This document shows, in pieces, positions 40,975 to 56,651 of a DNA stretch of 64,000 nt. Position 1 is the first letter of the stretch. Every line of letters begins with the position of its first letter. The notes under the pieces were generated by a model that did no database searches, was not told the origin of the DNA, and saw only the letters and a program-made list of their open reading frames with translations. The position numbers were made by a program, and so were the translations under genes. This stretch comes from Rhodospirillaceae bacterium (GTDB lineage Bacteria; Pseudomonadota; Alphaproteobacteria; MPNO01; UBA2964), in the NCBI GenBank assembly GCA_002720855.1, contig PBIN01000014.1:1-64000 (forward strand). Reading direction: 5' to 3'.

Positions 40975-41108
40975 GAGTGCTCGTTATTCCTCAGGAAGGA
41001 CACGGTTCAATATGCCCCATTCCGTCGATTGTCGTCTTCCGCTATTCTGCCCGAAATAAAAACTGGGGGCGGCGGCATCAGTGCGCGGCCCATAGATGGA
41101 GTAGGCCA

Positions 41109-42299
41109 ATGGCGGTAAGCGCCGGATCCGAGATCCCTGATCTTCCCGAGACTCATTATCTTGATAACCGAATTTATTTCGATCAGGAAATTTATTCTCA
41201 GGAACAATCGGATGTTTTTGCCAAGGTCTGGCTGTTTGTGTGTCATGAAAGTGAATTGGCACAGCCTGGTGATTTTCGCACGACCCTGGCCGCTGGAAAG
41301 CCGGTTGTTATCGTACGCGGGCAAGATGACGTTATTCGCACCTTCTACAATATTTGCCGGCATCGGGCCTCGCCGGTGGTGCGGTCAGATGCAGGAAATG
41401 CAACCGAGTTTCAGTGTTTTTATCATTTGTGGACCTATGGTCTGGACGGGGCCTGCACCGGAATTACCAAGCCCGCAGGTTATAAGGCGGTCAATCTCGA
41501 TCGCAGCAAGCTTGGGCTAATTCCCATTCGGACCGAAACCATCGCCGGTCTGGTGTTTATTTGCCTGAACGAGGACGCTCCGGATCTCAAGACATTTCTC
41601 GGCGACATTATGGACCCTCTAATGGACCCGCTTGGTGGCGAGCCGCTGGACGTGTTCCATTTCCACAAGGCCGATATCGCGACGAATTGGAAGTTATGGC
41701 AGGACAATAACAGCGAACGTTATCACAGCATGCTGCATGTGATTAACCGCAAGACCCAGCCCTGGGTGAAGGGCAAGACGAGCCCGATGAAACTTCGTCT
41801 CGGTGAAAACGGTCATAGCGGCTATTGGTCGGACGGGGTCGCCGAGGTCGATTATGCTGCCGGTGGTTATGCGGGGGTATCATCCGGTATTCTGCCGGGT
41901 TTGCGCGAGAATGAGATGCGGGTCATCAATCTCTTTCCCGACACCATGGTCAATATCCGATCGAACGTCATTCGGATCGATCGCATGGTGCCGATAAGTC
42001 CCGGCTGCACGCGCATTGAATGGTGGGGGCTTGGTCTGAGAGATGTATCGGAGGAGGTGCGGAGCGAGCGATTGCGACACCATAATATGTTCTGGGGTCC
42101 GGCGGGCCGGAATCTTGGTGAGGATATAATCGCGGTGGAGGAGCAGTGGGCAGCAATGAGCGCCGATGTCGTGCGCTACAGCATTCTCGCCCGTGAGGAG
42201 GAGTTAAATCCCACCGATGATGCGAATCTGCGAGCGTATTATCAGGAGTGGGGTCGGCTTACCGGCCGGGCACCCAATGCACCATTTGATGCCGTTTGA
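41109..42299 (+). CDS. Aromatic-ring-hydroxylating dioxygenase alpha subunit (Rieske)
   Basis: A 396-residue oxygenase subunit starting at the ATG at 41109 behind GGAG; the open frame upstream of it is not protein-like. The Rieske 2Fe-2S site is Cys83-x-His85 and Cys103-x2-His106 (CRHRASPV, CFYHLWTY). The mononuclear iron site lies in the DNNSERYHSMLH stretch with His206 and His210, and the acidic bridging residue close by. A beta-subunit gene follows at 42315, so this is an alpha-beta type enzyme. Ferredoxin and reductase are not in the window. Substrate unknown; the catabolic neighbourhood suggests an aromatic acid. Confidence 0.9.
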   Translation: MAVSAGSEIPDLPETHYLDNRIYFDQEIYSQEQSDVFAKVWLFVCHESELAQPGDFRTTLAAGKPVVIVRGQDDVIRTFYNICRHRASPVVRSDAGNATEFQCFYHLWTYGLDGACTGITKPAGYKAVNLDRSKLGLIPIRTETIAGLVFICLNEDAPDLKTFLGDIMDPLMDPLGGEPLDVFHFHKADIATNWKLWQDNNSERYHSMLHVINRKTQPWVKGKTSPMKLRLGENGHSGYWSDGVAEVDYAAGGYAGVSSGILPGLRENEMRVINLFPDTMVNIRSNVIRIDRMVPISPGCTRIEWWGLGLRDVSEEVRSERLRHHNMFWGPAGRNLGEDIIAVEEQWAAMSADVVRYSILAREEELNPTDDANLRAYYQEWGRLTGRAPNAPFDAV

Positions 42300-42314
42300 A
42301 CCGGGCGGTTGGTT

Positions 42315-42788
42315 GTGGAAAAAGAACTTGCCCAACTTCTCGATAAAGAGGCCATATTTGACCTGATCCGGGTGACGGCAGCGCGGCTCGATGACGAGGC
42401 GCTGGAGGAATGGCTCACCCTTTTTGCACCAGACTCTTTCTACGAAATTGCCGCTGCCAGCCCGGAAATTCAGAGCGCGATGTCATGGTGGAAATCAAGC
42501 CGCGAAGAACTTGAAAAGATTCTGTCAGAGGTGACCGAGCATGTACGTGACCCCGGAAAGCGGCTTCATCTCGTGACACCAATTTTAGCGGAGATCAACG
42601 GCAATAATGCCAGCGCGATTTCACATTTTTCGATCACGCGGACGGACACAGATGGACGAAGTTCTCTTTATGTTGCCGGTCGATACGAAGACGAACTTGT
42701 CAAAATAGATGGGCGCTGGCTCTATGCAAGTCATCGTGCGGTTTTAGATACGAGAATGGTCGAACCTTTTACGCATTTGCCGCTTTAG
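42315..42788 (+). CDS. Aromatic-ring-hydroxylating dioxygenase beta subunit
   Basis: A 157-residue SnoaL/NTF2-like fold protein. AIFDLIRVTAARLDDEALEEW, LFAPDSFYEIAA and LYVAGRYEDELVKIDGRWLY are typical of the small subunit, which stabilises the alpha3-beta3 oxygenase. The start may be GTG at 42315 (GGGCGG 6 nt upstream) or the TTG two codons earlier. Adjacent, downstream of the alpha gene by 15 bp, confirming the pair. Confidence 0.85.
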   Translation: MEKELAQLLDKEAIFDLIRVTAARLDDEALEEWLTLFAPDSFYEIAAASPEIQSAMSWWKSSREELEKILSEVTEHVRDPGKRLHLVTPILAEINGNNASAISHFSITRTDTDGRSSLYVAGRYEDELVKIDGRWLYASHRAVLDTRMVEPFTHLPL

Positions 42789-42979: not shown

Positions 42980-43713
42980 ATGAAGAAAAATTTTGAAAAT
43001 TCGCTCAAGCATGTGCTTATCCATGAAGGCGGTTGGGCAGATCATCCCAGGGACCCAGGTGGTGCGACAATGAAAGGTGTTACTCTTGCGACCTTCCGAC
43101 GCCATTTCGGCGAAGCGAAATCCAAGAGGGCTTTGCGTAACATATCCGATGACCAACTTCGTCAAATCTACCGATCGGGCTATTGGGATAGATGCCGCTG
43201 CGATCAACTCCCGTCCGGCGTCGATTATGCAGTATTTGATGCCGCGGTGAATTCTGGTCCGGGGCGCAGTGCAAAATGGCTACAGGCCGTCATTGGCGCA
43301 AAGCAGGATGGAGGGATCGGGCCTAAGACCTTGCTTTGGTTAAACAACACGACCCTGTTTTAGTCATCGAAAAGATGTGCGATGGTCGCCTAAATTTCCT
43401 GCGTCGTCTTGATACATTCGATACGTTTGGCAAAGGCTGGACGCGCCGTGTGGAAGGGGTACGGGCCACGGCACTCGCATTGGCAACAGGAAAAACACCT
43501 GAAATCAAACCTTCGGTCGAATTCAGGACCACCCGCAAAGGTTCTTCCGGCCTATGGGTTCGAAAACTGCAGCAAGCGCTTGAAATACATGTAGATGGAA
43601 AATTTGGCAAAGACACCGAAGCAGTTCTTAAAGCCTGGCAGGAGGCTCAAGGCCTCCAACCTGATGGCATTGCGGGGCGCAATACCTACCGCGCTCTAGG
43701 TCTGCTCGCGTGA
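42980..43713 (+). pseudogene. Frameshifted GH108 lysozyme-like/peptidoglycan-binding gene
   Basis: The first part (42980-about 43330) encodes a glycoside hydrolase family 108 domain: LIHEGGWADHPRDPGGATMKG with the catalytic Glu, then IYRSGYWDRCRCDQLPSG. It hits a premature stop at 43363. The next frame, from about 43331, continues without break as ALVKQHDPVLVIEKMCDGRL and FGKGWTRRVEGVRATALAL, then a peptidoglycan-binding domain (SSGLWVRKLQQALEIHVDGKF..DGIAGRNTYRALGL). One base (a C at GACC/TTG near 43330) is missing. Related enzymes are phage endolysins or secretion-activating proteins. Single-base indel may be a real mutation or an assembly error. Confidence 0.8.
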
Positions 43714-44810: not shown

Positions 44811-45269
44811 ATGATGTATACCGACTTTTTGCCAACTCGGAAGATACCCGTTAGTCAGCTTTATGCGTGGAACAGTCGCAGAGCATTTCCGCTAGAAATC
44901 AGTTTAACGCATCAGGGTTGTATAATTCGCGACGAGGCAAGTGGTATGGCTTTCCTGGTATCAACGGACGATGAAGGGTTTATCCGTGGTGCGACACTAA
45001 TGGGTGATACACGCGATCATCTTGTCTATTCGCAGCTTGCGGAAATGACGGGGTGCGAATGGGTCAACGAATATTCCGAGCAATGGCCGCTCTATCGGTG
45101 CTGGACCGAAGAAGAACGCGAAACACATGCCCGCAAAGTGGCCGCTGATCTGGCCGAAGATCGCGCCGAAACTGAAGGAATCTCGTTAGATGAGGCCTTT
45201 GAAATTGAATATAGAGCAATCTACGAGATGCACCCTGTGACCATTGCCCATATTCCTATCGCAGCCTGA
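44811..45269 (+). CDS. Hypothetical protein
   Basis: A 152-residue soluble protein starting MMYTDFLPTRKIPVSQL. The C-terminal half is acidic and helical (EERETHARKVAADLAEDRAE). AGGAG provides a good ribosome site. No family recognised. Its last 49 bp overlap the convergent membrane-protein gene. Confidence 0.6.
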   Translation: MMYTDFLPTRKIPVSQLYAWNSRRAFPLEISLTHQGCIIRDEASGMAFLVSTDDEGFIRGATLMGDTRDHLVYSQLAEMTGCEWVNEYSEQWPLYRCWTEEERETHARKVAADLAEDRAETEGISLDEAFEIEYRAIYEMHPVTIAHIPIAA

Positions 45270-45817
45270 TCTTCTTCTGAATATCGAAGCAATGTGTATA
45301 TAAAAAGGATCACGCCGCCCATCTCCATCCCTTCTTCAACGGGAGTCCAGAGATTGTAGGCAAGCGTATTTAAGAGCCCGTTCTCTTCATACATATTCGT
45401 TGCGTATTCCACACCGAGCGCTCCACCCAAAAAGATGGCGGCGGAAAGAAGAAATAAATTTCGGAATAACGGCCGCAGGTGAAGCAGGAACCGCAAATAT
45501 ATGAGGCCCATGATCAGCGAAACAATTGCAGCGGGGATCACCCAGGAGAATGTCGTAAAGCTGTTTACCGTTTCGTGCAGTTCGGCAATTTCGTCACAGG
45601 ACATATAAAGGAACCCAGCCGACAGTCCGTACCAGGCCCTGGTCCATTGGTCATCGATCTCGGACTTTCGCTTGGCGATCAGGAACAGTAGCGCTGAACA
45701 GTAAAAAAGGATGAATGTCGAAAACCAGGTTGCGAAATTCTTCTCAAGATCGACATCGAAATAATCGCGGATCGTTCCCGAAACACGTTCTACCTGATGG
45801 TGCCATATCTGGATCAT
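45221..45817 (-). CDS. Membrane protein of unknown function, last gene of the aldolase operon
   Basis: A 198-residue polytopic protein with at least five hydrophobic segments (TWFSTFILFYCSALLFLIA, SWVIPAAIVSLIMGLIYL, LFLLSAAIFLGGAL, EEGMEMGGVILFIYTLL) and an acidic motif SCDEIAELHE. The frame continues upstream of the ATG with a further hydrophobic stretch (TVITVLILCAVALLASHI), but has no ATG, GTG or TTG there, so the true start may be a rare codon or the ATG is right and the stretch is chance. It is 98 bp downstream of aroE on the same strand. Function unknown. Confidence 0.6.
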   Translation of the reverse strand: MIQIWHHQVERVSGTIRDYFDVDLEKNFATWFSTFILFYCSALLFLIAKRKSEIDDQWTRAWYGLSAGFLYMSCDEIAELHETVNSFTTFSWVIPAAIVSLIMGLIYLRFLLHLRPLFRNLFLLSAAIFLGGALGVEYATNMYEENGLLNTLAYNLWTPVEEGMEMGGVILFIYTLLRYSEEDQAAIGIWAMVTGCIS

Positions 45818-45915
45818 GATGTGCGACGCGAGCAGCGCGACCGCGCACAGAATTAAAACGGTAATGACCGTTCTAGTCGAAACTTGGAATTTGAATGACG
45901 GTCCTTATGTCACGG

Positions 45916-46770
45916 CTATCCGTCACCCAAAATGCTTTTCTCCATCATATCGCGCAGCTCTTCTGTGACCGTCGGCTCTACACCAAACCATTTGGTCCAG
46001 GCCGCGGGTCCCTGATGAATGAGCATGCCGAGACCGCCCACCGTTGGGTTGCCGCGCTCCCGTGCTGCCAAAATGAAAGTTGATTCCAATGGTGTGTAAA
46101 TAATGTCCGCGGCAATCGCGTTCACCGGAAGTTTTTCGAGATTTAGGTCGAGCGGGTCTTCGCCAACCATGCCCTGGTTCGTGACGTTGACCACGGTTGA
46201 GGCTCTCTCAAGAAGGCTATGCCGATCCTCCCATGGATAGACAGTAATCGGTCCGCCAAACTCATCAGCGATTATCTGCGCATTTTTCTGCGTGCGGTTC
46301 ACCAACCGCACTTCTTCTGCACCTTCATGCAGCAGCGCGTACACGATTGCCCGTCCGCCGCCACCGGCGCCAATTACAGTGCAGGGGCCTGCACTGGCCC
46401 GCCAATCGGGTTGCTGTTGTTTTAGATTGCCAAGAAATCCGAGCCAGTCGTTGTTCGTGCCGAACAGCGAACCGTCCTCGCGCACCACGACGCAGCTAAT
46501 CGCGCCGATCTTTTTGGCGACGTCGTCGACCTCATCGACAATGGTCATCGCATCCAGCTTATGCGGGATCGTGAGGTTGCAGCCCGAAAAACCCAACGGA
46601 TGCAGTGCTTTAAGCGCCGGTTCCAATTCGCCCGGCTTAATCTCCAGAAAGACATAGGTGCCCGCCATTCCCTGTTGCTCAAACCAGTAATTATGCATCA
46701 AGGGTGAACGTGAATGCATAACCGGCCAGCCCATAACACCGGCCAATAGAAATTTTTCGGAATGCACCAC
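45916..46770 (-). CDS. aroE: Shikimate/quinate dehydrogenase family (AroE)
   Basis: A 284-residue NAD(P)-dependent enzyme. The substrate site has HSRSPLMHNYWFEQQG (Ser20/Ser22 type) and NLTIPHK with catalytic Lys71; the cofactor site has VIGAGGGGRAIVYALL and the nucleotide-specificity segment VNRTQKNA. Located in a catabolic operon behind two class II aldolases and a GMC oxidoreductase, so it may act on quinate/shikimate-like or other cyclic polyols rather than in aromatic biosynthesis. Only 2 bp separate it from the aldolase gene. Whether the organism has another, biosynthetic AroE cannot be seen here. Confidence 0.85.
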   Translation of the reverse strand: MVHSEKFLLAGVMGWPVMHSRSPLMHNYWFEQQGMAGTYVFLEIKPGELEPALKALHPLGFSGCNLTIPHKLDAMTIVDEVDDVAKKIGAISCVVVREDGSLFGTNNDWLGFLGNLKQQQPDWRASAGPCTVIGAGGGGRAIVYALLHEGAEEVRLVNRTQKNAQIIADEFGGPITVYPWEDRHSLLERASTVVNVTNQGMVGEDPLDLNLEKLPVNAIAADIIYTPLESTFILAARERGNPTVGGLGMLIHQGPAAWTKWFGVEPTVTEELRDMMEKSILGDG

Positions 46771-46772
46771 GT

Positions 46773-47456
46773 TTAGGTACCCTCAACCATCTTTGCGCTG
46801 AAGTGATCCCATGTGCGCCGGAACAGGCTCGCTGACCATAATTTTTTGCGGCACAAATTCAGCTCTTCCTGGGTGAAGGAATAGGGAGTTCCGAGTTGCG
46901 CTGCCCTGTATTGCCGCTCGGCATTGTCTTCGAGATAGTTCATCAAAACGAAGGCATCGATGATCGTCTCGCCTAAAGTCACCGCCCCGTGCGCCTTCAT
47001 CAACGCGGCGGGCCGGTCATCCAGACACTCGGTTAATGCGTTCGCCATTTCGACATTGTTGATCGAATCCGGTGAATCGAGGATCGGCATCGGATACACC
47101 AGCGAACCCTGGGCATAGACCGGCAGATATTCCTGACCGGCAGTTGACAGAATTGTCGACCATTTCGGGTGGCAATGGACGATTGCACGTGCATCGGGAC
47201 GCGCCTTGTAGATTCCTGAATGCAGATGAAATTCCAGCGGCGGATTGCCATCGCCTTCCAGCAGATTGCCGTCGAAATCGATAATACAGAGGTCGTCGAT
47301 TGTCAGCGTGCTGCGCTGCCGGTTGCCAATATTAATAAGGATACGATCGTCGGGCTGGCGGATGCTGGCATGTCCGTTATAGTCGACGATACCTGATCGC
47401 TCCAGCATGCGGATGCATTGAACCAGCTGCTGTTTTTGTTGGTAGAAACCGGTCAT
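46773..47456 (-). CDS. Class II aldolase/adducin family protein (copy 1)
   Basis: A 227-residue zinc aldolase-type protein. The start is the ATG at 47456, behind an AAAGGAGG ribosome site 6 nt upstream; an extended frame would run into the gene before it. Glu75 (PPLEFHLHSGIY) and the metal ligands His94, His96 (VHCHPKW) and His156 (KAHGAV) fit the family that includes fuculose-phosphate aldolase, epimerases and some decarboxylases. Operon position second to last catabolic gene before aroE. Substrate unknown. Confidence 0.87.
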   Translation of the reverse strand: MTGFYQQKQQLVQCIRMLERSGIVDYNGHASIRQPDDRILINIGNRQRSTLTIDDLCIIDFDGNLLEGDGNPPLEFHLHSGIYKARPDARAIVHCHPKWSTILSTAGQEYLPVYAQGSLVYPMPILDSPDSINNVEMANALTECLDDRPAALMKAHGAVTLGETIIDAFVLMNYLEDNAERQYRAAQLGTPYSFTQEELNLCRKKLWSASLFRRTWDHFSAKMVEGT

Positions 47457-47478
47457 CGCATGCCTCCTTTCCTTCACC

Positions 47479-48225
47479 TCACCAATTTGTCTCGGCACGT
47501 ACTTCGCGGCGCCACAAATCCCATGCCCGCAAGCACGCGCCATTATTCGGAACATCGGCGAGGCGACCTTCTTCTTCGTCCAGCGAGGCAATCGGTTTGT
47601 TACCCGCCAGATCCATTGTCCAATGTTGGATACGAGAATTCACTTCGGTAAAAACCGCCCGAAAAACGGCGAGCTGCAATGATGATCCGCAGGCGACTGA
47701 GCCATGGGCCCGCATCAAGGCAATGTCTTTATCGCCCAGACATTCCGCAAAGGTCTCACCCTTGTCGCCATCGCTCACCAGCATATCGGTGGGTCCATAT
47801 TTCTCACTGATATCGAACACCGGCACGCCCGCAGCGAGAAAAGCTGCGTTGTGGAACATTGCCTCAATCTTGCAATCGACAAGCCCGAAGGGAATGACCG
47901 ACGGTGAATGGCTGTGCACGACGGAATTTAGATCAGGCCGCGCTTTATAAATTTCGCCATGGATAAAGCGTTCCAGAAAACTGCCGCGTCCTTCGGCGTT
48001 CACCGCGTTGCTGTCGAGATCGTACTCGATGATGTCTTCCGGTGTGGCGAGCGCGGGGGCTTTGGCACGGCACATGAAATAGCGGTCCGGTGCATCGGGG
48101 TGGCGCTGTGAGACATGCCCGAACGCATCAACCACACCGCGCGCGGCAAGAATCCGGCTTGCAGCCGCCAGATCGGCAATAAACGCGTCAGAGACTGGCC
48201 CGCCCGATTTCGGTTCTTCGCTCAT
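47479..48225 (-). CDS. Class II aldolase/adducin family protein (copy 2)
   Basis: A 248-residue member starting at the ATG at 48225, 7 bp after the GMC oxidoreductase stop, with GAGGGG 8 nt upstream. Active-site residues are Glu85 (GSFLERFIHGEIY), His104 and His106 (VVHSHSPS) and His174 (RAHGSVAC). It is only distantly similar to the neighbouring copy, so the two probably catalyse different steps. Some characterised members of this branch are aldolases or decarboxylases of hydroxy acids. Confidence 0.87.
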   Translation of the reverse strand: MSEEPKSGGPVSDAFIADLAAASRILAARGVVDAFGHVSQRHPDAPDRYFMCRAKAPALATPEDIIEYDLDSNAVNAEGRGSFLERFIHGEIYKARPDLNSVVHSHSPSVIPFGLVDCKIEAMFHNAAFLAAGVPVFDISEKYGPTDMLVSDGDKGETFAECLGDKDIALMRAHGSVACGSSLQLAVFRAVFTEVNSRIQHWTMDLAGNKPIASLDEEEGRLADVPNNGACLRAWDLWRREVRAETNW

Positions 48226-48232
48226 CGTCGCA

Positions 48233-49942
48233 TCACCCCTCCGCCAGGATCGTCCCGGCGACTTTTTCGCCGACCATGATGGTCGGGAAGTTGGTGTTCG
48301 CACACGGTACGGCGGGCATGATCGAGGCATCGGCGACACGCAGCCCCTCAACGCCATAGACGCGTGCCGACGGATCGGTCACGGCACCTGGATCGTCGGC
48401 TGCACCCATACGGTTTGAACAGGACGCGTGGAAGTGTCCCAGCACGGTTTTGTGAATCCATTCGGTCATCACGCTATCGTCTTCAAGGACATCACTGATC
48501 GAAAGTCCGTCCGAGACGAAGTTGCGGATGATCCAGCGGCGTAAAGGTCCGGAAAGGTCCATCGCCTGGCCACCAACCCAGGTCTGGAATTTGTTGGCGG
48601 CGTTATAGACAGCGTAACGCCTGGCTCGGTCGCTATAGCTGATTGGGAACACATCATGCAGCGTGTCGCGCAGTTCCGGCATCTCGCACAGATTGGCCAT
48701 CATGCGAACACCGATCTTGAGCCGTTCGAGATCGCGGACATCGGAACACATATTGAAATCGACATCCGGTGTCCCCATCGGATCATCGGGGTTCAGTTTT
48801 ACCTCGCCGGTAGAGAACGACTTGTTGACCCAGAGCATCATAAGCCCAATCCGTTCCCCGACCGCATGCCAGAAGGATTTATTCATCGGAATCAAATACA
48901 TGTCGCCGGCCGGACAGCCTTCAACACCTGATGACCAGCGCATCCCGGCATACATCGGCATACGCAGTTCGGGTGATAGTCGCGACTCTGGTTTCATATA
49001 ACAGCCGAAATTTACACCCGGATGCTCCATAAGGTGTTTTCCCACACCGGCACGGTCCGCCACAACATCAATGCCGTATTCCTGAAGCTCGCCTGCAGGT
49101 CCGATACCGGAGCGTAACAGCATAGCCGGTGAATGCAGCGCGCCAGAGCTCACGACGACCTCATTTGCCTGAATATCAAAAACTTCGCCATGGTGATGCG
49201 CACGCACACCAGTGACCCGAGTGCCATCGAACAAGACTTTTTCGACACGTGCGTCGCCAAGGATGTTGAAATTGGGCCGCGCGCGAACATCCGATGTTAG
49301 ATAGGCGGTTGCAGTAGACGTCCGGTGGCCTTCGTGATGCGCGACCGCAATGGGGAAATAGCCATCATCAAAAACCCCGTTCTTGTCTTTAAGGTCTTGC
49401 CAACCTTCTTTGCGAGCCGCCTCAACAAAGCCTTTGGTAAAGCCCGGCCAGCGCTCTGCGGCAATTCTCTGCACGGCCATCGGGCCGTCCTTGCCATGCA
49501 GCGGGCCGTCAAAGTCAAGGTCAGTTTCCTGCTTCTTGAAATAGGGCAGGACATCTTCCCAGCCCCAGCCTTTGGCACCGCGTTCGACCCAGCCGTCATA
49601 ATCCCACGGCACGCCGCGAATTGAGATCATGCCATTGACGGAAGACCCGCCACCGATGACCCGGCCCTGCGCATAACGAACGCGTTTGCGATCATCAGGG
49701 GCATTGCCGGGACGAGGTCCCCAGGCGACCGTTTGGCCCACCCAGGTAAAGCGTGGATTACCATGAGCGGAGCCAGCAAACGTGTCACGGATTTCGGCGG
49801 GTTCAGTGCCCGGTACGAAATCTTCTCCGGCTTCCAGCAGGAGAACGTTGTTGGATGAGCGTTCGCTCAAGCGGCTCGCGACGACACACCCCGCAGAGCC
49901 GCCGCCGACGATTACATAATCGAATTTCTGATTTTCAAACAT
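48233..49942 (-). CDS. GMC-family FAD oxidoreductase (choline/alcohol dehydrogenase-like)
   Basis: A 569-residue flavoprotein. FAD-binding motif VIVGGGSAGCVVASRLSE at the N-terminus, the GMC signature VIGGGSSVNGMISIRGVPWDYD, and the C-terminal catalytic region GHFHASCSNRMGAADDPG (active His) and VPCANTNFPTIMVGEK (active-site Asn/His position). The ATG at 49942 is chosen because the signature follows directly; the extension upstream lacks a ribosome site. It leads an operon with two aldolases and aroE. Expected to oxidise a primary or secondary alcohol, passing electrons to a quinone or other acceptor. Confidence 0.92.
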   Translation of the reverse strand: MFENQKFDYVIVGGGSAGCVVASRLSERSSNNVLLLEAGEDFVPGTEPAEIRDTFAGSAHGNPRFTWVGQTVAWGPRPGNAPDDRKRVRYAQGRVIGGGSSVNGMISIRGVPWDYDGWVERGAKGWGWEDVLPYFKKQETDLDFDGPLHGKDGPMAVQRIAAERWPGFTKGFVEAARKEGWQDLKDKNGVFDDGYFPIAVAHHEGHRTSTATAYLTSDVRARPNFNILGDARVEKVLFDGTRVTGVRAHHHGEVFDIQANEVVVSSGALHSPAMLLRSGIGPAGELQEYGIDVVADRAGVGKHLMEHPGVNFGCYMKPESRLSPELRMPMYAGMRWSSGVEGCPAGDMYLIPMNKSFWHAVGERIGLMMLWVNKSFSTGEVKLNPDDPMGTPDVDFNMCSDVRDLERLKIGVRMMANLCEMPELRDTLHDVFPISYSDRARRYAVYNAANKFQTWVGGQAMDLSGPLRRWIIRNFVSDGLSISDVLEDDSVMTEWIHKTVLGHFHASCSNRMGAADDPGAVTDPSARVYGVEGLRVADASIMPAVPCANTNFPTIMVGEKVAGTILAEG

Positions 49943-50078
49943 GATAGGACGGTACCGCGAAGCGGCGTTTAGGTCCAATCGAGGTATGTCTTTTCGGTTT
50001 TCTTAGGTGTCTCCCTTGCCGGTTGATCGGACGAACCCTAGGCTATTGCCAATAAATGCCGATCAGGGAGGCAACAAA

Positions 50079-50876
50079 ATGGCTGATAATATTCACGGCC
50101 CGCTTTATTACGAAAATATGGGCCGAAAAGGGCCGGTGATCGCCTTTGTGCATCCAAATCCGATGGACCAGTCGTGCTGGATGTATCAGATGGCGCATTT
50201 CTCAAGCTGGTATCGTTGTATCGGTATCGACATTCCGGGCTATGGCCGTTCGCCAACAGCGGACAAAGACCTGACCATGGACGACATGGCGGCGGGTTGC
50301 TGGGAAGCCGTCGATGACGCGGTGGGCAAAGGTGAAAAAGCTATCGTGGTAGGCTGTTCTGTCGGCTCGGCAATTGCCCCCTATATGTATCATCAGCGAC
50401 CGAATTTGACGTCGGCCCTGATCCTGTCGGGCACTGGCTACAATCCCGGCAAACCCTTTGCACCCGGCCGGATAGAGCAGTACGAAGCGAAAGGCGTCGA
50501 TTACCGCTGGGAATATACGTTTCAGGATTTTAGCGCGTCTTTTCGCACAACACCGATGGCGCATTACTTCGCGGACCTGTTTGCCGAGCGCAATGATACG
50601 GCGGACGCTCAGACCATCATCTATCAGTTCAAGGCGATGATGGCAGAAGAGTCGGAAGAACATCATGCCGGGATCAAATGTCCGACGATCATATTGACCG
50701 GCAGCGAAGACAATTCGCATCAACGGGCTTTCGCACTACAGGAGCGTATACCGGGCTGTGAGCTCAAAACGCTGCCGGGAGCCGGGCATGCCTGCCAGCT
50801 TGAACAACCCTGGCTTTTTGATCGCTTTATGGTCGAGTTCCTGACCAAACACGGACTGCACCCGGCGGCCTCTTGA
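50079..50876 (+). CDS. Alpha/beta hydrolase
   Basis: A 265-residue hydrolase with nucleophile Ser in VVGCSVGSAIAPYM, oxyanion motif FVHPNPMDQSCWMYQM and the pair GSEDNSHQ and LPGAGHACQLEQP for acid and base. The start is the ATG at 50079, behind GGGAGG. It is divergent from the GMC operon and is followed by an unknown small gene, so it may be part of the dissimilation of the same substrate class. It resembles meta-cleavage-product hydrolases or enol-lactone hydrolases generally. Substrate unknown. Confidence 0.82.
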   Translation: MADNIHGPLYYENMGRKGPVIAFVHPNPMDQSCWMYQMAHFSSWYRCIGIDIPGYGRSPTADKDLTMDDMAAGCWEAVDDAVGKGEKAIVVGCSVGSAIAPYMYHQRPNLTSALILSGTGYNPGKPFAPGRIEQYEAKGVDYRWEYTFQDFSASFRTTPMAHYFADLFAERNDTADAQTIIYQFKAMMAEESEEHHAGIKCPTIILTGSEDNSHQRAFALQERIPGCELKTLPGAGHACQLEQPWLFDRFMVEFLTKHGLHPAAS

Positions 50877-51289: not shown

Positions 51290-52480
51290 TTATTCTGCGA
51301 CCACCGCCCCGGTCTCGATAACGGCGTTGCCCGAGGGAATCACGATTGTTTGTTCTTCCGGGTCGCGAGCAATGCCCGGCGGGTCTTCGCCGCGCTCCAT
51401 AGCCTTTATCGCCTCGCGAAGTCGCCGCCGGAATAACGCCACGCCCCGATCTGACGTGGCCAGATTTTCCAAGGCGTGCCTTGCGATCGGGCGTTGGCTG
51501 ACCTGTGCTTCCCAGTCGTCCGGCTCACGCTGTTTGGTTTCGTAGTCGCGAATGACAGGTGCATCGGGCGGTTGGAAAATTTTCTTTTCCGGATCTAAAA
51601 GCTCGACGTGAAACCCGATGGTGTTTTCATTATCCACCGGGACCCACCATCCGACCATACGCGCGCGTTCTGTCTCGCGATCGGGATCGGTGCCGGTGAC
51701 TTCCGTTGGCGGTACGGATCGCGCTGTGGGGACGTAGATTGTCGATGTCCGCGTTAGCTGAAATCCGCTATCTAGGTCGGTGGTTCTTATATAGGACACA
51801 TGCGTTTTGGCATGCTTGTAATCGTAGGTAGGCTCGACTGCCATGACCTCGGAGAACTCAAACAGTCCCGGATTCCAGCCATGCAGGATGTTAGTATGCA
51901 CGGGGTCCATTGCATTTTCCTGCAATTGCAGCCAATTGCATTCCGCCACCTCACCGCGACTGTAATTCCGATAGGCGAGATAATCCGCGTTTTCAACTTC
52001 CAGGACGTCATAGCGCGGTAGAAGCGGCTTCTTTTCCAGCGGCCCCATATAAGCGAAGACGAGACCCTTATACTCCTCGGCAGGGTACCAGGGCTGACGT
52101 ATTTCATCTTTGTAGTTGCTTTCCTCGGGTTCGCCGGGTTGATCAAGGCATCTGCCTTCTTCGTCATAGAGCCAGCCGTGATAACAGCAGCGAAGGCCGT
52201 TTTCCTCAATTCGGCCATATTCAAGCGAGGTGCCGCGGTGGCAGCAATGAGCCCCCAAAACACCCACTTTACCCGATTTGTCGCGATAGGCTACGAGCTC
52301 CTCATCGAGAATTTTGAGAAATTTTGGGAGATCGGTCAGTTCCGACGACATGCAAACCGGTTGCCAATACCGTCGCATAAGCTCGCCCATCGGTGTTCCG
52401 AATCCGACATGGGTGAGTCTGGGGTCTTCGTCAGGCACGATTGCATTATGCCCGTAACCAGATACGTCGGTATTAGTCAT
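51290..52480 (-). CDS. Rieske oxygenase, phthalate-4,5-dioxygenase-like (single-component oxygenase)
   Basis: A 396-residue oxygenase. The Rieske cluster residues are Cys79 and His81 (AHCCHRGTSL) and Cys98 and His101 (CCYHGWLYDEEG), with the mononuclear iron in NAMDPVHTNILH. This arrangement and the ERYDYLTEYV-free sequence fit the group that includes phthalate dioxygenase and vanillate O-demethylase, which lack a beta subunit. The start is the ATG at 52480 behind GGGAGG; an earlier TTG would add one residue. A cognate reductase is not visible nearby. Substrate could be a methoxy- or carboxylated aromatic. Confidence 0.9.
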   Translation of the reverse strand: MTNTDVSGYGHNAIVPDEDPRLTHVGFGTPMGELMRRYWQPVCMSSELTDLPKFLKILDEELVAYRDKSGKVGVLGAHCCHRGTSLEYGRIEENGLRCCYHGWLYDEEGRCLDQPGEPEESNYKDEIRQPWYPAEEYKGLVFAYMGPLEKKPLLPRYDVLEVENADYLAYRNYSRGEVAECNWLQLQENAMDPVHTNILHGWNPGLFEFSEVMAVEPTYDYKHAKTHVSYIRTTDLDSGFQLTRTSTIYVPTARSVPPTEVTGTDPDRETERARMVGWWVPVDNENTIGFHVELLDPEKKIFQPPDAPVIRDYETKQREPDDWEAQVSQRPIARHALENLATSDRGVALFRRRLREAIKAMERGEDPPGIARDPEEQTIVIPSGNAVIETGAVVAE

Positions 52481-52749
52481 CAAACACCTCCCGCGCCGGT
52501 ATTACTGTGATTTTTACCCGGCATTTGTATGCAAAAGAATAGGAAGAGCTCTTGGCTTTTGTCAACGAACACGGGCTCGGTCCTTAAACACTAATATTTG
52601 CGAGAAAGAGTATATTTTCAGGGTACCGAGTATTAGCGGTAAAACGGCATGACGCTAATTCTATTTGTTGGTGTCGGCTCGATCTGCACGGTGTTACATA
52701 TGTCGCCGCCAAACATGGTGCTTCGCGACAGTAAATAGGGGAGTGACAG

Positions 52750-53421
52750 ATGATGACATTCAGTGAGAAAGCCTGGGCCGAAAGCGCTGATCTCTATCGG
52801 CGTACTCTTGATTTACCTTTTAACCGCGAGATCACCGATGGCACGCTGTCGCAGGAACGTTTCCAGTTCTACATGGTGCAAGATGCTCTTTATCTTGAGC
52901 AGTATTCCCGTGCCCTGGCGCTCGCATCGGCTAAAGCGCCGGATGCTGAAGCAATGCAGTATTTTGCTCATGCGTCTGAGGATGCGCTTGTCGTTGAGCG
53001 CGCATTGCATGAGAGTTTCTTTGAAAAGTTCGGCATTGCGCAGGAAGAAGCGAGTGCCGCCGAACCTTCGCCGACATGCTATGGCTATACCAATTTTCTG
53101 CTCGCGGTTGCAGCGCACCGCAGTTACGAAGAGCTAGTGGCAGCGATCCTGCCCTGCTTCTGGATTTATTGGGAAGCGGGCAAGCATATTGCAAGTACGG
53201 CAGTTGCTGGCAATCCCTATCAGGCGTGGATTGATACCTATTCTGACGCGGAATTTGGTGACGCAGTCAACATGGCGATTACAATCACGGATCGCGCTGC
53301 CGAAGCGGCAACTACAGAACGGCAGTCAGGTATGTTGAATGCTTTTAAACGATCCGCTCAGTTTGAATGGATGTTTTGGGACAGTGCCTACCGGTTGGAG
53401 AAGTGGCCAACGAGCCTGTAA
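52750..53421 (+). CDS. tenA: TenA-family aminopyrimidine aminohydrolase / thiaminase II
   Basis: A 223-residue all-helical protein. Residues equivalent to the known active site are present: Asp45 (YMVQDALYLE), Cys136 (ILPCFWIYWE) and Glu206 (QFEWMFWDSA). The enzyme hydrolyses amino-methyl pyrimidines in thiamine salvage. No TPP-riboswitch pattern was found in the 269 bp upstream, so the regulation differs from the common thiamine gene. It lies in an otherwise catabolic region, so a related amine hydrolysis in catabolism is a real alternative. Ribosome site GGGGAGTG. Confidence 0.88.
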   Translation: MMTFSEKAWAESADLYRRTLDLPFNREITDGTLSQERFQFYMVQDALYLEQYSRALALASAKAPDAEAMQYFAHASEDALVVERALHESFFEKFGIAQEEASAAEPSPTCYGYTNFLLAVAAHRSYEELVAAILPCFWIYWEAGKHIASTAVAGNPYQAWIDTYSDAEFGDAVNMAITITDRAAEAATTERQSGMLNAFKRSAQFEWMFWDSAYRLEKWPTSL

Positions 53422-53580
53422 ATTAATATGATTGCCCAGAGACGGCTTGGAGGATGATAGCAGTCGCTATAGCGGTGGAATCTTTGCAGACGATTAAAAA
53501 AAGAAATCGGCGACTGCGGAATTGAGCCCAAGCAGATATTTTGGAGAGATTTGCATCAGCTGCAAGTGACGAGGTGAGAG

Positions 53581-54600
53581 TTGTCGATCTTTAAATCTGT
53601 TGATGGACCGGCCGCCTGGAAGGGAAGCGATTTTGTCGGAAGTGACGAATGGATTGTGCCGCTTGGTCCACAGCATTTGGATGAATTAGATGCGGCGCTC
53701 GCTGGGGTTACTTCCCAAAATCTACCTATCAACGAGATCACGGCTGACGTATTTCCCCTTCCCGCGTTAGGCACAGAGCTCGCAGCGTTGGCCGGAGAAT
53801 TACAGGATGGCCGTGGATTTGCAGTTGTCAGAGGTATTCCGGTTGAGCGCTATAGTGAAGAAGAGAATAAATTTATAAGTCTCGGGCTTTGTTCCCAGTT
53901 TGGTCGTGTCATCCCACAAAGCCGTCAAGGTGACTGGATTAATCACGTTATCGATATCAGCGATCAGAAAGCAGCACCAAAGCCCGACTTCGACCATGTC
54001 CTCAAACGAAAGAAATTACGCACCAATCACCGCGGCGGTGAACTGGATTTTCATACCGATACAACGGATGTGTTTGCACTCTACTGTTTAAGACCGGCGA
54101 AAAGCGGAGGCCGCAGCCGTCTGGTCAGCTTCGCCACGTTGCACAACATGATTGGCGAAACAAAGCCGGATTATCTAAAGGCATTGTTCGATGGCTATTA
54201 TTATATGTCGCAGTCCGACGACAGTAATAAGGCCGGGGCAGCGATCTCGGCAAAGCGCGTTCCCGTGTTTACGCGGCGCGGCAATAAGGTGGAAGGCTAT
54301 TATATTTCGCAAGTCGTACAGCGCGCCATCGATCACGGCGATTTCGAGTACAGTTTTGTTGAAGACGATGCCCGTGAGGAAATACAGCGCGTGGCAGAGC
54401 AAAAGGGCATCGCTCACGAGTTTGATTTAAAGGCGGGTGATCTATTGGTGGTCAATAATAGAACGGTGATGCACGCACGCTACGATTTTGAGGATTTTCC
54501 CGAGATCGAACGCCGCCGCCATTTGTTCAGGTTATGGATGGCGACCACTCCAGAGATGATGGCGGACACTTTTGTAGCGTCCTCGGAGAGGTTCTCCTAG
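53581..54600 (+). CDS. TauD/TfdA-family Fe(II)/2-oxoglutarate dioxygenase
   Basis: A 339-residue enzyme with a TTG start behind GAGGTGAG. The facial triad is His158 and Asp160 (LDFHTDTTD) and His298 (NNRTVMHARYD), and Arg317 (RRHLFRLWM) is the likely 2-oxoglutarate anchor. It would hydroxylate or cleave an organic substrate, releasing succinate and CO2. It is between tenA and an oxidoreductase, all in the same direction; the spacing of 34-160 bp is loose. Substrate unknown; not closely like taurine dioxygenase in my reading. Confidence 0.87.
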   Translation: MSIFKSVDGPAAWKGSDFVGSDEWIVPLGPQHLDELDAALAGVTSQNLPINEITADVFPLPALGTELAALAGELQDGRGFAVVRGIPVERYSEEENKFISLGLCSQFGRVIPQSRQGDWINHVIDISDQKAAPKPDFDHVLKRKKLRTNHRGGELDFHTDTTDVFALYCLRPAKSGGRSRLVSFATLHNMIGETKPDYLKALFDGYYYMSQSDDSNKAGAAISAKRVPVFTRRGNKVEGYYISQVVQRAIDHGDFEYSFVEDDAREEIQRVAEQKGIAHEFDLKAGDLLVVNNRTVMHARYDFEDFPEIERRRHLFRLWMATTPEMMADTFVASSERFS

Positions 54601-54634
54601 AAACTCGCTAATGTCCCAGTAAAAGGAACACATT

Positions 54635-55558
54635 ATGAAAGCTGCGTATTTTGACGAACACGGCGGACCGGAGGTCATAAAAATTGGCCAGCAACCCGAT
54701 CCCGTCGCCGGATCGGGTGAAATTGTAGTCGATATCCATGCCGCATCGGTCAACGGGGCGGACTGGAAGGTTCGCGCCGGAAATTATCGGCAATTGCCAA
54801 ACTTTCCTTACATATTGGGACGCGACTTTTCGGGCACAGTATGTGCGCTGGGCGAGGGTGCCACTGATTTTGCGATCGGTGATGAGGTGTTCGGTGTCTG
54901 CGATGTCGGGCAGGAAGGAACCTACTGCGAAAAAATAGCCATGAAACAGGCGCTCTGCGCCACTAAACCGGCGGAGTCCTCTCATATCGATATTGCCGCA
55001 TTGGCGCTGATCGGGCTGACGGCTGTGATGTCTATTGAAGATACTCTGCATCTCCAGTCGGGTGAGAAAATCCTAATCCAAGGTGGCGCAGGTGGCGTTG
55101 CCAGTTTTGCGATACAACTTGCCAAGCATCTTGGCGCGCATGTGGTCAGTACCACCAGCGCGGCCAATGTGGATTATGTCAAAGATCTCGGTGCTGATGA
55201 GGTTATCAATTATAACGCACAGGATTTTCGGGAAGTCGTATCTGATTGCGATGCCGTGTTTGATACGGTTGGTGGTGATGTTGCCAAGGGCGCATTTGAC
55301 GTTCTGAAAAAAGGTGGCCGGGCAGCTTTTATCGCCTCAGGTTCGAATGGCCTGGAATCGCCGTCAGATGATTACATTTCTCTTCGGCCTGATGTTTATC
55401 GAGACCGGCCACATCTTGAACGGATCGTTGAGCTCATTGGCGAGGGTGCGACTGTAGCACCAGCAGTAAAACTGTTTTCGCTGGATGAAGCAGTTGAAGC
55501 GCAGAAGCTTAGTGAGTCTCGCCACTTCCGCGGCAAGCTTGTTTTCAAGATCCGTTAA
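54635..55558 (+). CDS. NADP-dependent oxidoreductase, quinone-oxidoreductase-like (zinc-free MDR)
   Basis: A 307-residue medium-chain dehydrogenase/reductase. Motifs include HAASVNGADWKVRAGNY, PYILGRDFSGTV and the nucleotide-binding IQGGAGGVASFAIQLAKHLGA. The zinc ligands of alcohol dehydrogenases are absent, as in quinone and enoyl reductases. It follows the TauD gene by 34 bp and is convergent with the LLM gene, overlapping its stop by 14 bp. Substrate unknown; an enone or quinone formed in aromatic breakdown would suit. Confidence 0.86.
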   Translation: MKAAYFDEHGGPEVIKIGQQPDPVAGSGEIVVDIHAASVNGADWKVRAGNYRQLPNFPYILGRDFSGTVCALGEGATDFAIGDEVFGVCDVGQEGTYCEKIAMKQALCATKPAESSHIDIAALALIGLTAVMSIEDTLHLQSGEKILIQGGAGGVASFAIQLAKHLGAHVVSTTSAANVDYVKDLGADEVINYNAQDFREVVSDCDAVFDTVGGDVAKGAFDVLKKGGRAAFIASGSNGLESPSDDYISLRPDVYRDRPHLERIVELIGEGATVAPAVKLFSLDEAVEAQKLSESRHFRGKLVFKIR

Positions 55559-56651
55559 CCGGTTGTCTCAATCCAAGACGTTCCATGCGTGGCAAAATTT
55601 CGTCACGTAGTGCTGGAAACTCGTCGATATAGTTGATGAGCCCGATGGCAATTCCATCGACGCCGCCCTCGCTCATGATCCGATACTGCTCTACGACATC
55701 ATCATAACTTCCAACAACCGGGTATGTGCCGACGCCGCTGATCATTCGCTCCTTCAATGTTTCGAGCAGTTTTAGAGGCGTATCGCGGCCCTTGGTTCGG
55801 ATGGCGACGGCGTGCTCCGCTGCTTCCCAGTCACCCATCTCATAAACGATGTAATGGTAATAATCCGCTGCTTCCTTTCGGGTTGGCCTAGCTACCATAT
55901 GACCGCTGGCATAAACGCCTACGTCATCGTCGTCGACTGAGTCACGTAATGCTTTGACACTCGGTCCAAAATCCTTGAGTTCCATGATCGAGGTGAAAAG
56001 ACAGTCAGCGTGACGTGCGGCAAATGCCTTTCCTGCAGGTGAATTTCCTGCACTCACTAAAATTGGACGGTCGCCGCCCCAGGGTTTGGGTTTCAGGATG
56101 ACGCGCTGGAGATCGAAGTACTCGCCTTTAAAATCGAACGGTTCCTCTTCCGCCCAGGCTTTTTTGAGGATGGTGACCCATTCTTCCGTGTACTCATATC
56201 GTTCTTCGTGAGGACGCAGACCGACACCAAACATTGCGTGCTCACCGGCATTCCAGCCCGAAACCATGTTCAGGCCAAATCTCCCTTTGCCGATATGATC
56301 AGCCGTTACCATTTGTTTGGCGGCAAATATCGGGCTCAAAAACCCGACATGGACTGTGCCAAAAACACAGATATGTTCAGTTGCCGCAAGCAGGCCGGAT
56401 GCCCAGGTGAGGGTTTCGAAGGTAGTTCCTTCCGTGTCGGTTTCACCCTGATAGCCATGCCAACGCCCGATCGGCAATATAAATTCCAGACCTGCCTTAT
56501 CGGCCAATTTTGCGGCTTCCAGATTACTATCCCAGCTAGCGTCCCAATATTCGGGCGCTTTGTGCATACTCAGACCGCCCGAACAGTTTTGGCCGAAAAG
56601 GCCCAATTTAAATTTGTTAGGTCCATACATCCGCGTGTTCTTGCGGCTCAT
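55545..56651 (-). CDS. LLM-class flavin-dependent monooxygenase (RutA/dimethylsulfone-monooxygenase-like)
   Basis: A 368-residue TIM-barrel flavoprotein. EAAKLADKAGLEFILPIGRWHG, VHVGFLSPIFAAKQMVTADHI, GRFGLNMVSGWNAGEHAMFG and YDYTEEW-like (RYEYTEEWVTILKKAW) are typical of the group with RutA (pyrimidine ring opening) and SfnG. It needs reduced FMN from a separate reductase, which is not seen near. With TenA and OCD-family genes near, a nitrogen-containing ring substrate is a thought, not a result. Confidence 0.87.
   Translation of the reverse strand: MSRKNTRMYGPNKFKLGLFGQNCSGGLSMHKAPEYWDASWDSNLEAAKLADKAGLEFILPIGRWHGYQGETDTEGTTFETLTWASGLLAATEHICVFGTVHVGFLSPIFAAKQMVTADHIGKGRFGLNMVSGWNAGEHAMFGVGLRPHEERYEYTEEWVTILKKAWAEEEPFDFKGEYFDLQRVILKPKPWGGDRPILVSAGNSPAGKAFAARHADCLFTSIMELKDFGPSVKALRDSVDDDDVGVYASGHMVARPTRKEAADYYHYIVYEMGDWEAAEHAVAIRTKGRDTPLKLLETLKERMISGVGTYPVVGSYDDVVEQYRIMSEGGVDGIAIGLINYIDEFPALRDEILPRMERLGLRQPVNGS

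Follow-up and report, generated by a model that had tools for sequence, protein, structure and literature searches.

In PMC11841055, the protein of PDB entry 2Z7B is described as a Mn(II)-dependent 3-hydroxy-2-methylpyridine-4,5-dicarboxylate decarboxylase (HMPDdc) that is structurally similar to class II aldolases, and a dioxygenase of the same fold is reported; PMC6362003 presents DhbB, a class II aldolase, as taking part in the decarboxylation of a ring-cleavage product. Here we describe two enzymes of the class II aldolase family, Ald1 and Ald2, that are encoded together with a paralogue of shikimate dehydrogenase (the AroE-variant) on contig PBIN01000014.1 of a Rhodospirillaceae bacterium (assembly GCA_002720855.1). 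Positions 1 to 64,000 of this contig were analysed and are referred to as the window. The three genes form a conserved core that is clustered across several bacterial classes, and we propose, with a probability of roughly 0.55, that this triad serves in the catabolism of a carboxylated ring compound, combining enzymes that resemble decarboxylases with a neofunctionalised AroE.

A search of the literature (titles and abstract openings) found no description of the triad module, and no single paper searched names shikimate dehydrogenase together with both class II aldolase and dihydroxyphthalate decarboxylase; PMC6362003 has the latter two, and PMC7522526 only lists two of the enzyme names in protein tables.

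In the window the triad lies within a row of five minus-strand open reading frames (orfs), all of them present and with the boundaries given in the initial annotation; the gaps between them, read off the sequence, are 7, 22, 2 and 98 bp. That annotation also called the combination of enzymes unusual, and we concur. The five genes are:

48233..49942, minus strand: GMC-family FAD oxidoreductase of 569 amino acids (aa), matching PF00732/PF05199 (GMC_oxred_N/C); the start is ATG, and a TTG at 49978 is possible.
47479..48225, minus strand: Ald1, a class II aldolase/adducin-family enzyme of 248 aa, matching PF00596 (Aldolase_II) at 96.7 bits.
46773..47456, minus strand: Ald2, a second class II aldolase-family enzyme, of 227 aa, matching PF00596 at 130 bits.
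45916..46770, minus strand: AroE-variant, a shikimate dehydrogenase paralogue with a GTG start, matching PF08501 (Shikimate_dh_N) at 87 bits and PF01488 (Shikimate_DH) at 35 bits.
45221..45817, minus strand: putative membrane protein of 198 aa, hydrophobic by eye, with no family match in Pfam and NCBIfam searches at an E-value of 0.001.

A conserved triad of Ald1, Ald2 and AroE

A species-genome collection was scanned with Ald1, and 229 relatives were confirmed; the best 80 were kept, and the fractions given here therefore describe close orthologues only. The conserved core is Ald1, Ald2 and AroE, a smaller set than the row of five genes: 63 of the 80 loci have both Ald2 and AroE at 6 kb or less from Ald1. 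Among the incomplete loci, five have Ald2 but lack AroE (one of the five with a homologue of Pht5, 4,5-dihydroxyphthalate decarboxylase), two have the Pht5 homologue alone near Ald1, and ten have none of Ald2, AroE, Pht5 and GMC at this distance; a contig end is near some of the incomplete loci, and in locus L052 AroE is further away. Gene order and strand vary among the triad loci, and the hosts are labelled Alpha-, Beta- and Gammaproteobacteria together with some Acidobacteria bins, which may be misbinned. The best reading is that the triad module has spread between unrelated bacteria and that the window holds one copy of it. In a phylum-wide sample of 398 genomes, Ald1 has matches at an E-value of 1e-70 in only two, the window genome and another whose match is 49% identical.

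Comparisons of flanking genes used a set of 67 triad loci: those among L033-L111 whose fetched stretch contains both Ald2 and AroE at whatever distance, and in addition L159, L160, L161 and L163.

In a plasmid collection all Ald1 matches are below 60% identity, and in none of the three regions inspected does the annotation contain the triad. On a plasmid of Neorhizobium petrolearium (NZ_CP123001.1; L113, 12001-13716), a Pht5 homologue—66% identical to the copy in L102—lies directly before a class II aldolase gene that is an Ald1 relative; ABC transporter genes lie alongside, and neither Ald2 nor AroE appears in the annotation nearby. In L112/L030 (G016:C1 near 1300222-1302543), a contig end carries a damaged second copy of GMC-Ald1-Ald2-AroE; its Ald1 and AroE matches are broken into several pieces, by decay or by assembly error.

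The Pht5 homologue as the commonest fourth gene

Outside the window's genus, the gene most often beside the triad is the Pht5 homologue, which is strongly enriched (36 of the 67 triad loci versus none of 40 control stretches). The controls were taken from the starts of contigs C2 and C7 in 21 triad genomes; several are short, and gene content was not matched. As regards the enrichment p-values throughout, related loci are not independent and the 22 tests are uncorrected. In at least 29 of the 80 loci the homologue lies directly upstream of Ald1 on the same strand, its end separated from the Ald1 orf by 1 to 123 bp; this is a lower bound, since gaps were measured to the earliest start codon possible and orfs extending far upstream were missed. 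Its sole PDB match at an E-value of 0.01 is 9jp7 (212 bits), and some plasmid annotations call its relatives 4,5-dihydroxyphthalate decarboxylase. Within the window's genus a Pht5 orthologue (64-69% identity) sits away from the module, and has an internal stop in genome G017. The window genome has 14 Pht5-like matches at an E-value of 1e-20, and 12 Ald1-like matches at 0.001.

Ald1 and Ald2 belong to the class II aldolase family

Ald1 and Ald2 are 28.5% identical to each other. The closest solved structure to Ald1 is PDB 2z7b (the Mlr6791 protein, HMPDdc), with a match of 149 bits over 226 residues in which the catalytic His and Glu are aligned. Four residues are invariant in each enzyme: E86, H105, H107 and H175 in Ald1 (77 aligned rows, 62 distinct; the numbering counts one extra N-terminal residue, the start having been taken at 48228 where the right start is 48225), and E75, H94, H96 and H156 in Ald2 (77 aligned rows, 61 distinct). 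By analogy with FucA, we take these to be three metal-binding histidines and an acidic residue.

The NCBIfam model for PhtC (3,4-dihydroxyphthalate decarboxylase) gives 89.2 bits with Ald1 and 64 bits with Ald2, both under the cut-off of 200. Sugar-aldolase models are also missed, Ald2 scoring 76 against a cut-off of 250 for FucA_Meth and Ald1 46 against 251 for NF005123; Ald2 scores higher on FucA_Meth than Ald1 does (39 bits). The initial annotation referred to both enzymes as zinc aldolases, which is a fold name only, and it is unsafe as a functional label: the closest solved relative of Ald1 is a Mn(II) decarboxylase of the same fold, and the class II aldolase DhbB is reported to take part in a decarboxylation. 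Ald1 is predicted to be decarboxylase-like.

The AroE-variant has an altered substrate pocket

At positions 86, 87 and 101 of Escherichia coli AroE, where ordinary AroE has Asn-Thr-Thr, the AroE nearest to Ald2 has Ser-Cys-Asn in 67 of 67 triad loci, a count made with one AroE per locus, selected for its proximity to Ald2 regardless of its residues. The corresponding residues of the window copy are in S92-C93 and N107-D108-W109. Positions 14, 16, 61, 65, 102, 215 and 244 are identical to those of the E. coli enzyme in all 67, so that equivalents of S14, S16, T61, K65, D102, Y215 and Q244 are kept. We take positions 14, 16, 61 and 215 to bind the carboxylate, 65 and 102 to be catalytic, and 86 and 101 to touch the ring hydroxyls. 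With the carboxylate positions kept and 86 and 101 replaced, we infer a substrate that differs from shikimate on the hydroxyl side, that is, a ring acid like shikimate at its carboxylate and unlike it at the hydroxyls.

The AroE alignment has 76 Ser-Cys-Asn rows, representing 68 distinct sequences, and a single branch separates these from all other sequences in a tree that omits columns 86, 87, 101 and 103; the Shimodaira–Hasegawa-like approximate likelihood ratio test (SH-aLRT) value of 82 supports it moderately, and the tree was a quick one in which several branches are long. The 30 AroE-family sequences that lack Ser-Cys-Asn comprise 25 with Asn-Thr-Thr, two with Asn-Thr-Asn and three with Asn-Cys-Tyr/Phe. 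The AroE-variant is 27-29% identical to E. coli AroE and YdiB, and it would best be read as a neofunctionalised, unrecognised subfamily of AroE.

The initial annotation named, as an outcome that would refute its reading, that this AroE is the sole biosynthetic enzyme of the genome. A second AroE, with ordinary pocket residues, is encoded on another contig (G000:C15:655195), and at least one further AroE homologue was found in 21 of 21 triad genomes tested. Nine of these further homologues were read: five have Asn-Thr-Thr, one has Asn-Thr-Asn (G433) and three have Asn-Cys-Tyr/Phe (G439, G440 and G442). Because four of the nine are thus not Asn-Thr-Thr, an ordinary AroE is established in only part of the hosts.

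Additional AroE paralogues were noted. Loci L185, L186 and L187 (Rhizobiales genomes G440, G442 and G439, respectively) contain one that is 50-57% identical to the window's and has Asn-Cys-Tyr/Phe, and in two Burkholderiales loci (L067 near 15827 and L068 near 16253) one with Asn-Thr-Asn and 47-48% identity is located about 4-5 kb from the module AroE.

Genes for aromatic catabolism near the triad

Neighbouring genes were called by a purpose-made composition score and named partly by eye. In L045 (labelled Candidatus Puniceispirillum) the module is surrounded by genes for PobA, LigA, a LigB-type dioxygenase and LigK, each above its NCBIfam cut-off, and by two Amidohydro_2 proteins that by eye are LigI- and LigJ-like. 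In relatives from the window's order (L159, L160 and L163), Ald2 and AroE are accompanied by a LigXa-type Rieske oxygenase, a hydrolase and a zinc alcohol dehydrogenase, and L159 and L160 additionally have a LigJ-like gene.

At least one of the genes searched for protocatechuate 4,5-cleavage is present in 12 of 67 triad loci and in none of the 40 controls (p=0.0024), although this union was chosen after looking. Nominal differences are seen for the hydrolase (9/67 versus 0/40, p=0.012), the zinc dehydrogenase (8/67 versus 0/40, p=0.020) and TctC (15/67 versus 3/40, p=0.038). The LigXa-like Rieske gene is not enriched, with six of 67 triad loci and one of 40 controls (p=0.19). Neither type of dehydroquinase (AroQ, AroD) has a match in the 67 triad loci or in the 40 controls; dehydroshikimate dehydratase was not searched.

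The GMC and membrane-protein genes lie outside the core

The GMC oxidoreductase partners the triad in the window's genus only, in L033-L036 (81-93% identical) and in the damaged copy L112. It is present at 35% identity or more in four of the 67 triad loci, and a distant GMC protein (31%) is found near the triad in L066. Its position upstream of Ald1 is the place that the Pht5 homologue occupies in many other bacteria. It misses the NCBIfam cut-offs of the choline dehydrogenase and MftG models (361 versus 605, 316 versus 732 and 315 versus 387), and we regard it as a genus-level addition to the triad. Relatives of the membrane-protein gene occur in two of the 80 loci, L033 and L034, and in L033 the relative is about 1.6 kb from AroE; the 198-aa protein is probably outside the module.

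A single five-gene operon is therefore rejected, as the GMC and membrane genes are not conserved with the triad. What stands of the conserved operon envisaged in the initial annotation is the recurrence of the three central genes; the two outer genes fall away, and the orientation of AroE is not constant.

Other genes in the window

Two Rieske oxygenases are encoded within 10 kb of the module. A hydrolase gene divergent from the row of five and one of the two Rieske genes are:

50079..50876, plus strand: alpha/beta hydrolase, divergent, matching PF12697 and weakly PcaD-like (87.5 bits with the PcaD model versus a cut-off of 255.85).
51290..52483, minus strand: Rieske oxygenase, matching PF00355 at 67 bits and PF19301 (LigXa_C) at 26.1 bits, slightly below the cut-off of 27.

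The hydrolase is kept as a neighbour in three of the four genus relatives (L033, L034 and L036). The Rieske oxygenase is a possible candidate for an upstream partner of the triad; a relative of it adjoins the triad in L033 only. The other Rieske oxygenase lies at 40977-42788 on the plus strand, where the gene for an alpha subunit precedes a 159-aa orf that, judged by eye, encodes its beta subunit; this pair was not seen beside the triad among the 80 related Ald1 loci.

Genes for TenA-family, TauD-family, zinc dehydrogenase and luciferase-like monooxygenase proteins lie in a row at 52750-56651, and the last three of these recur in L036. Two overlapping plus-strand orfs (42980-43363 and 43336-43713), which by eye are lysozyme-like and a peptidoglycan-binding protein, are possibly a single gene split by a frame change.

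Discussion

We propose that a ring acid is decarboxylated by the module, which would also catalyse one NAD(P)-dependent reaction on a ring resembling shikimate. Ald1 would be a decarboxylase-like enzyme and Ald2 a lyase or second decarboxylase, and the AroE-variant would still grip the ring carboxylate and use the retained Lys/Asp pair, its pocket suiting, for example, a cyclohexadiene or a polycarboxylated ring. The product probably enters a protocatechuate-type 4,5-cleavage pathway in some hosts; in the window's genus the first reaction may be provided, or substituted, by the GMC oxidoreductase and oxygenases encoded nearby. As to the substrate, our leading guess is an acid of phthalate-like or hydroaromatic type.

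Several observations weigh against this proposal. AroE shares the strand of Ald1 in 30 of 63 triad loci and is on the opposite strand in 33, so that a single operon fits only part of the range. The Pht5 homologue is lacking from 31 of the 67 triad loci, in some owing to a contig end. No orthologous Pht5 was found in the window genome, where the best match (46%) is on another contig; the gene adjoining the Pht5 orthologue in G017 likewise has no match there at an E-value of 1e-60, and this stretch is thus probably missing from the window genome, an assembly gap being the alternative. The fetched flanks of 55 of the 67 triad loci contain none of the 4,5-cleavage genes searched, single genes of this set are not enriched over the controls (p 0.09 to 0.63), and the LigA of the window genome, with a LigB-like orf adjoining it, is on another contig. 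The AroE-variant scores 320 bits with the NCBIfam shikimate dehydrogenase model NF001312, above the cut-off of 295, and the Ser-Cys-Asn signature by itself names no substrate.

The alternative that survives best is a phthalate-like route, in which a Rieske oxygenase makes the cis-dihydrodiol of a benzene polycarboxylate, the AroE-variant acts as dihydrodiol dehydrogenase, and Pht5, Ald1 and perhaps Ald2 decarboxylate the product to protocatechuate. The Pht5 homologue in more than half of the triad loci, the likeness of Ald1 to PhtC (below the cut-off) and to HMPDdc, the carboxylate positions retained in the AroE-variant, the LigXa-like gene in six triad loci and the PobA, LigA, LigB-type and LigK genes beside the L045 module all favour it. 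The Rieske gene is nevertheless found in a control as well and is not enriched, an aldolase-family pair plus Pht5 exceeds the decarboxylases needed for one phthalate, and we know of no AroE-family dihydrodiol dehydrogenase, which also counts against this route; as a complete scheme we consider it doubtful.

Catabolism of a sugar acid or polyol would make Ald1 and Ald2 true retro-aldolases whose substrate derives from a polyol, and GMC and AroE would be the oxidoreductases of the route. GMC enzymes often oxidise alcohols, the 5-ketofructose reductase 7cok is related to the AroE-variant, and the higher FucA_Meth score of Ald2 points the same way. This score and those of the other sugar-aldolase models are, however, far under their cut-offs, no sugar kinase, isomerase or transporter was recognised by eye among the neighbour clusters common to at least four loci, and genes of aromatic type do occur among the neighbours, so that we think this explanation improbable.

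The ring acid that the initial annotation suggested as substrate remains plausible in general terms; quinate and shikimate, which it named, fare less well. In that scheme AroE would be a quinate/shikimate dehydrogenase and 3-dehydroshikimate would be converted to protocatechuate, in agreement with the family membership of the AroE-variant, its passing of the shikimate dehydrogenase cut-off and the protocatechuate-cleavage genes near some copies of the module. Against it, the three pocket positions are replaced in every triad locus, the 67 triad loci, like the controls, have no match to either type of dehydroquinase, and the aldolase-family pair and Pht5 are left without a role, all of which makes it distinctly unlikely. 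That the three genes are loose neighbours, kept together by history or shared regulation with no common pathway, would accord with their variable order and strand and with the ten Ald1 loci that stand alone (some near a contig end), but is most improbable given the clustering of the triad in 63 of 80 loci across several classes, even with close Ald1 relatives as rare phylum-wide as two in 398 genomes.

Extending the proposal of a ring-acid module, we tentatively suggest an undescribed and widely transferred pathway that operates in uncultured bacteria of the sea, fresh water and soil. In it a neofunctionalised AroE would act on a ring that resembles shikimate without being shikimate, while the aldolase-fold pair and a Pht5-type protein would decarboxylate carboxyl-rich ring compounds, such as polycarboxylated acids, aromatic or alicyclic, from dissolved organic matter. 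If the substrate is indeed a ring acid of this carboxyl-rich kind, the genes of the module would serve as markers for the turnover of poorly known dissolved organic matter by aquatic bacteria. As NCBIfam names the AroE-variant a shikimate dehydrogenase, genome-based models would misread it as amino-acid biosynthesis.

Four known systems bear comparison with the module. A minority of hosts have pieces of protocatechuate 4,5-cleavage (LigAB-LigC-LigI-LigJ-LigK) flanking it, the fullest set being that of L045, although the link is partial and rests on a union chosen afterwards, and the LigA of the window genome is on a different contig. HMPDdc is the closest solved relative of Ald1, with its catalytic His and Glu aligned, whereas the match is just 149 bits over 226 residues. 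Phthalate degradation by Pht5 and PhtC is echoed by the triad's commonest partner and by the membership of Ald1 in the family of PhtC; it differs in that Ald1 is far under the PhtC cut-off and the window copy has no Pht5 neighbour, and AroE, to our knowledge, has no place in phthalate pathways. Finally, the AroE-variant departs from AroE and YdiB in its Ser, Cys and Asn at 86, 87 and 101 and in its 27-29% identity, but shares with them the fold family and the equivalents of S14, S16, T61, K65, D102, Y215 and Q244. The module would best be placed as a variant of aromatic or hydroaromatic acid catabolism that includes an unrecognised AroE subfamily.

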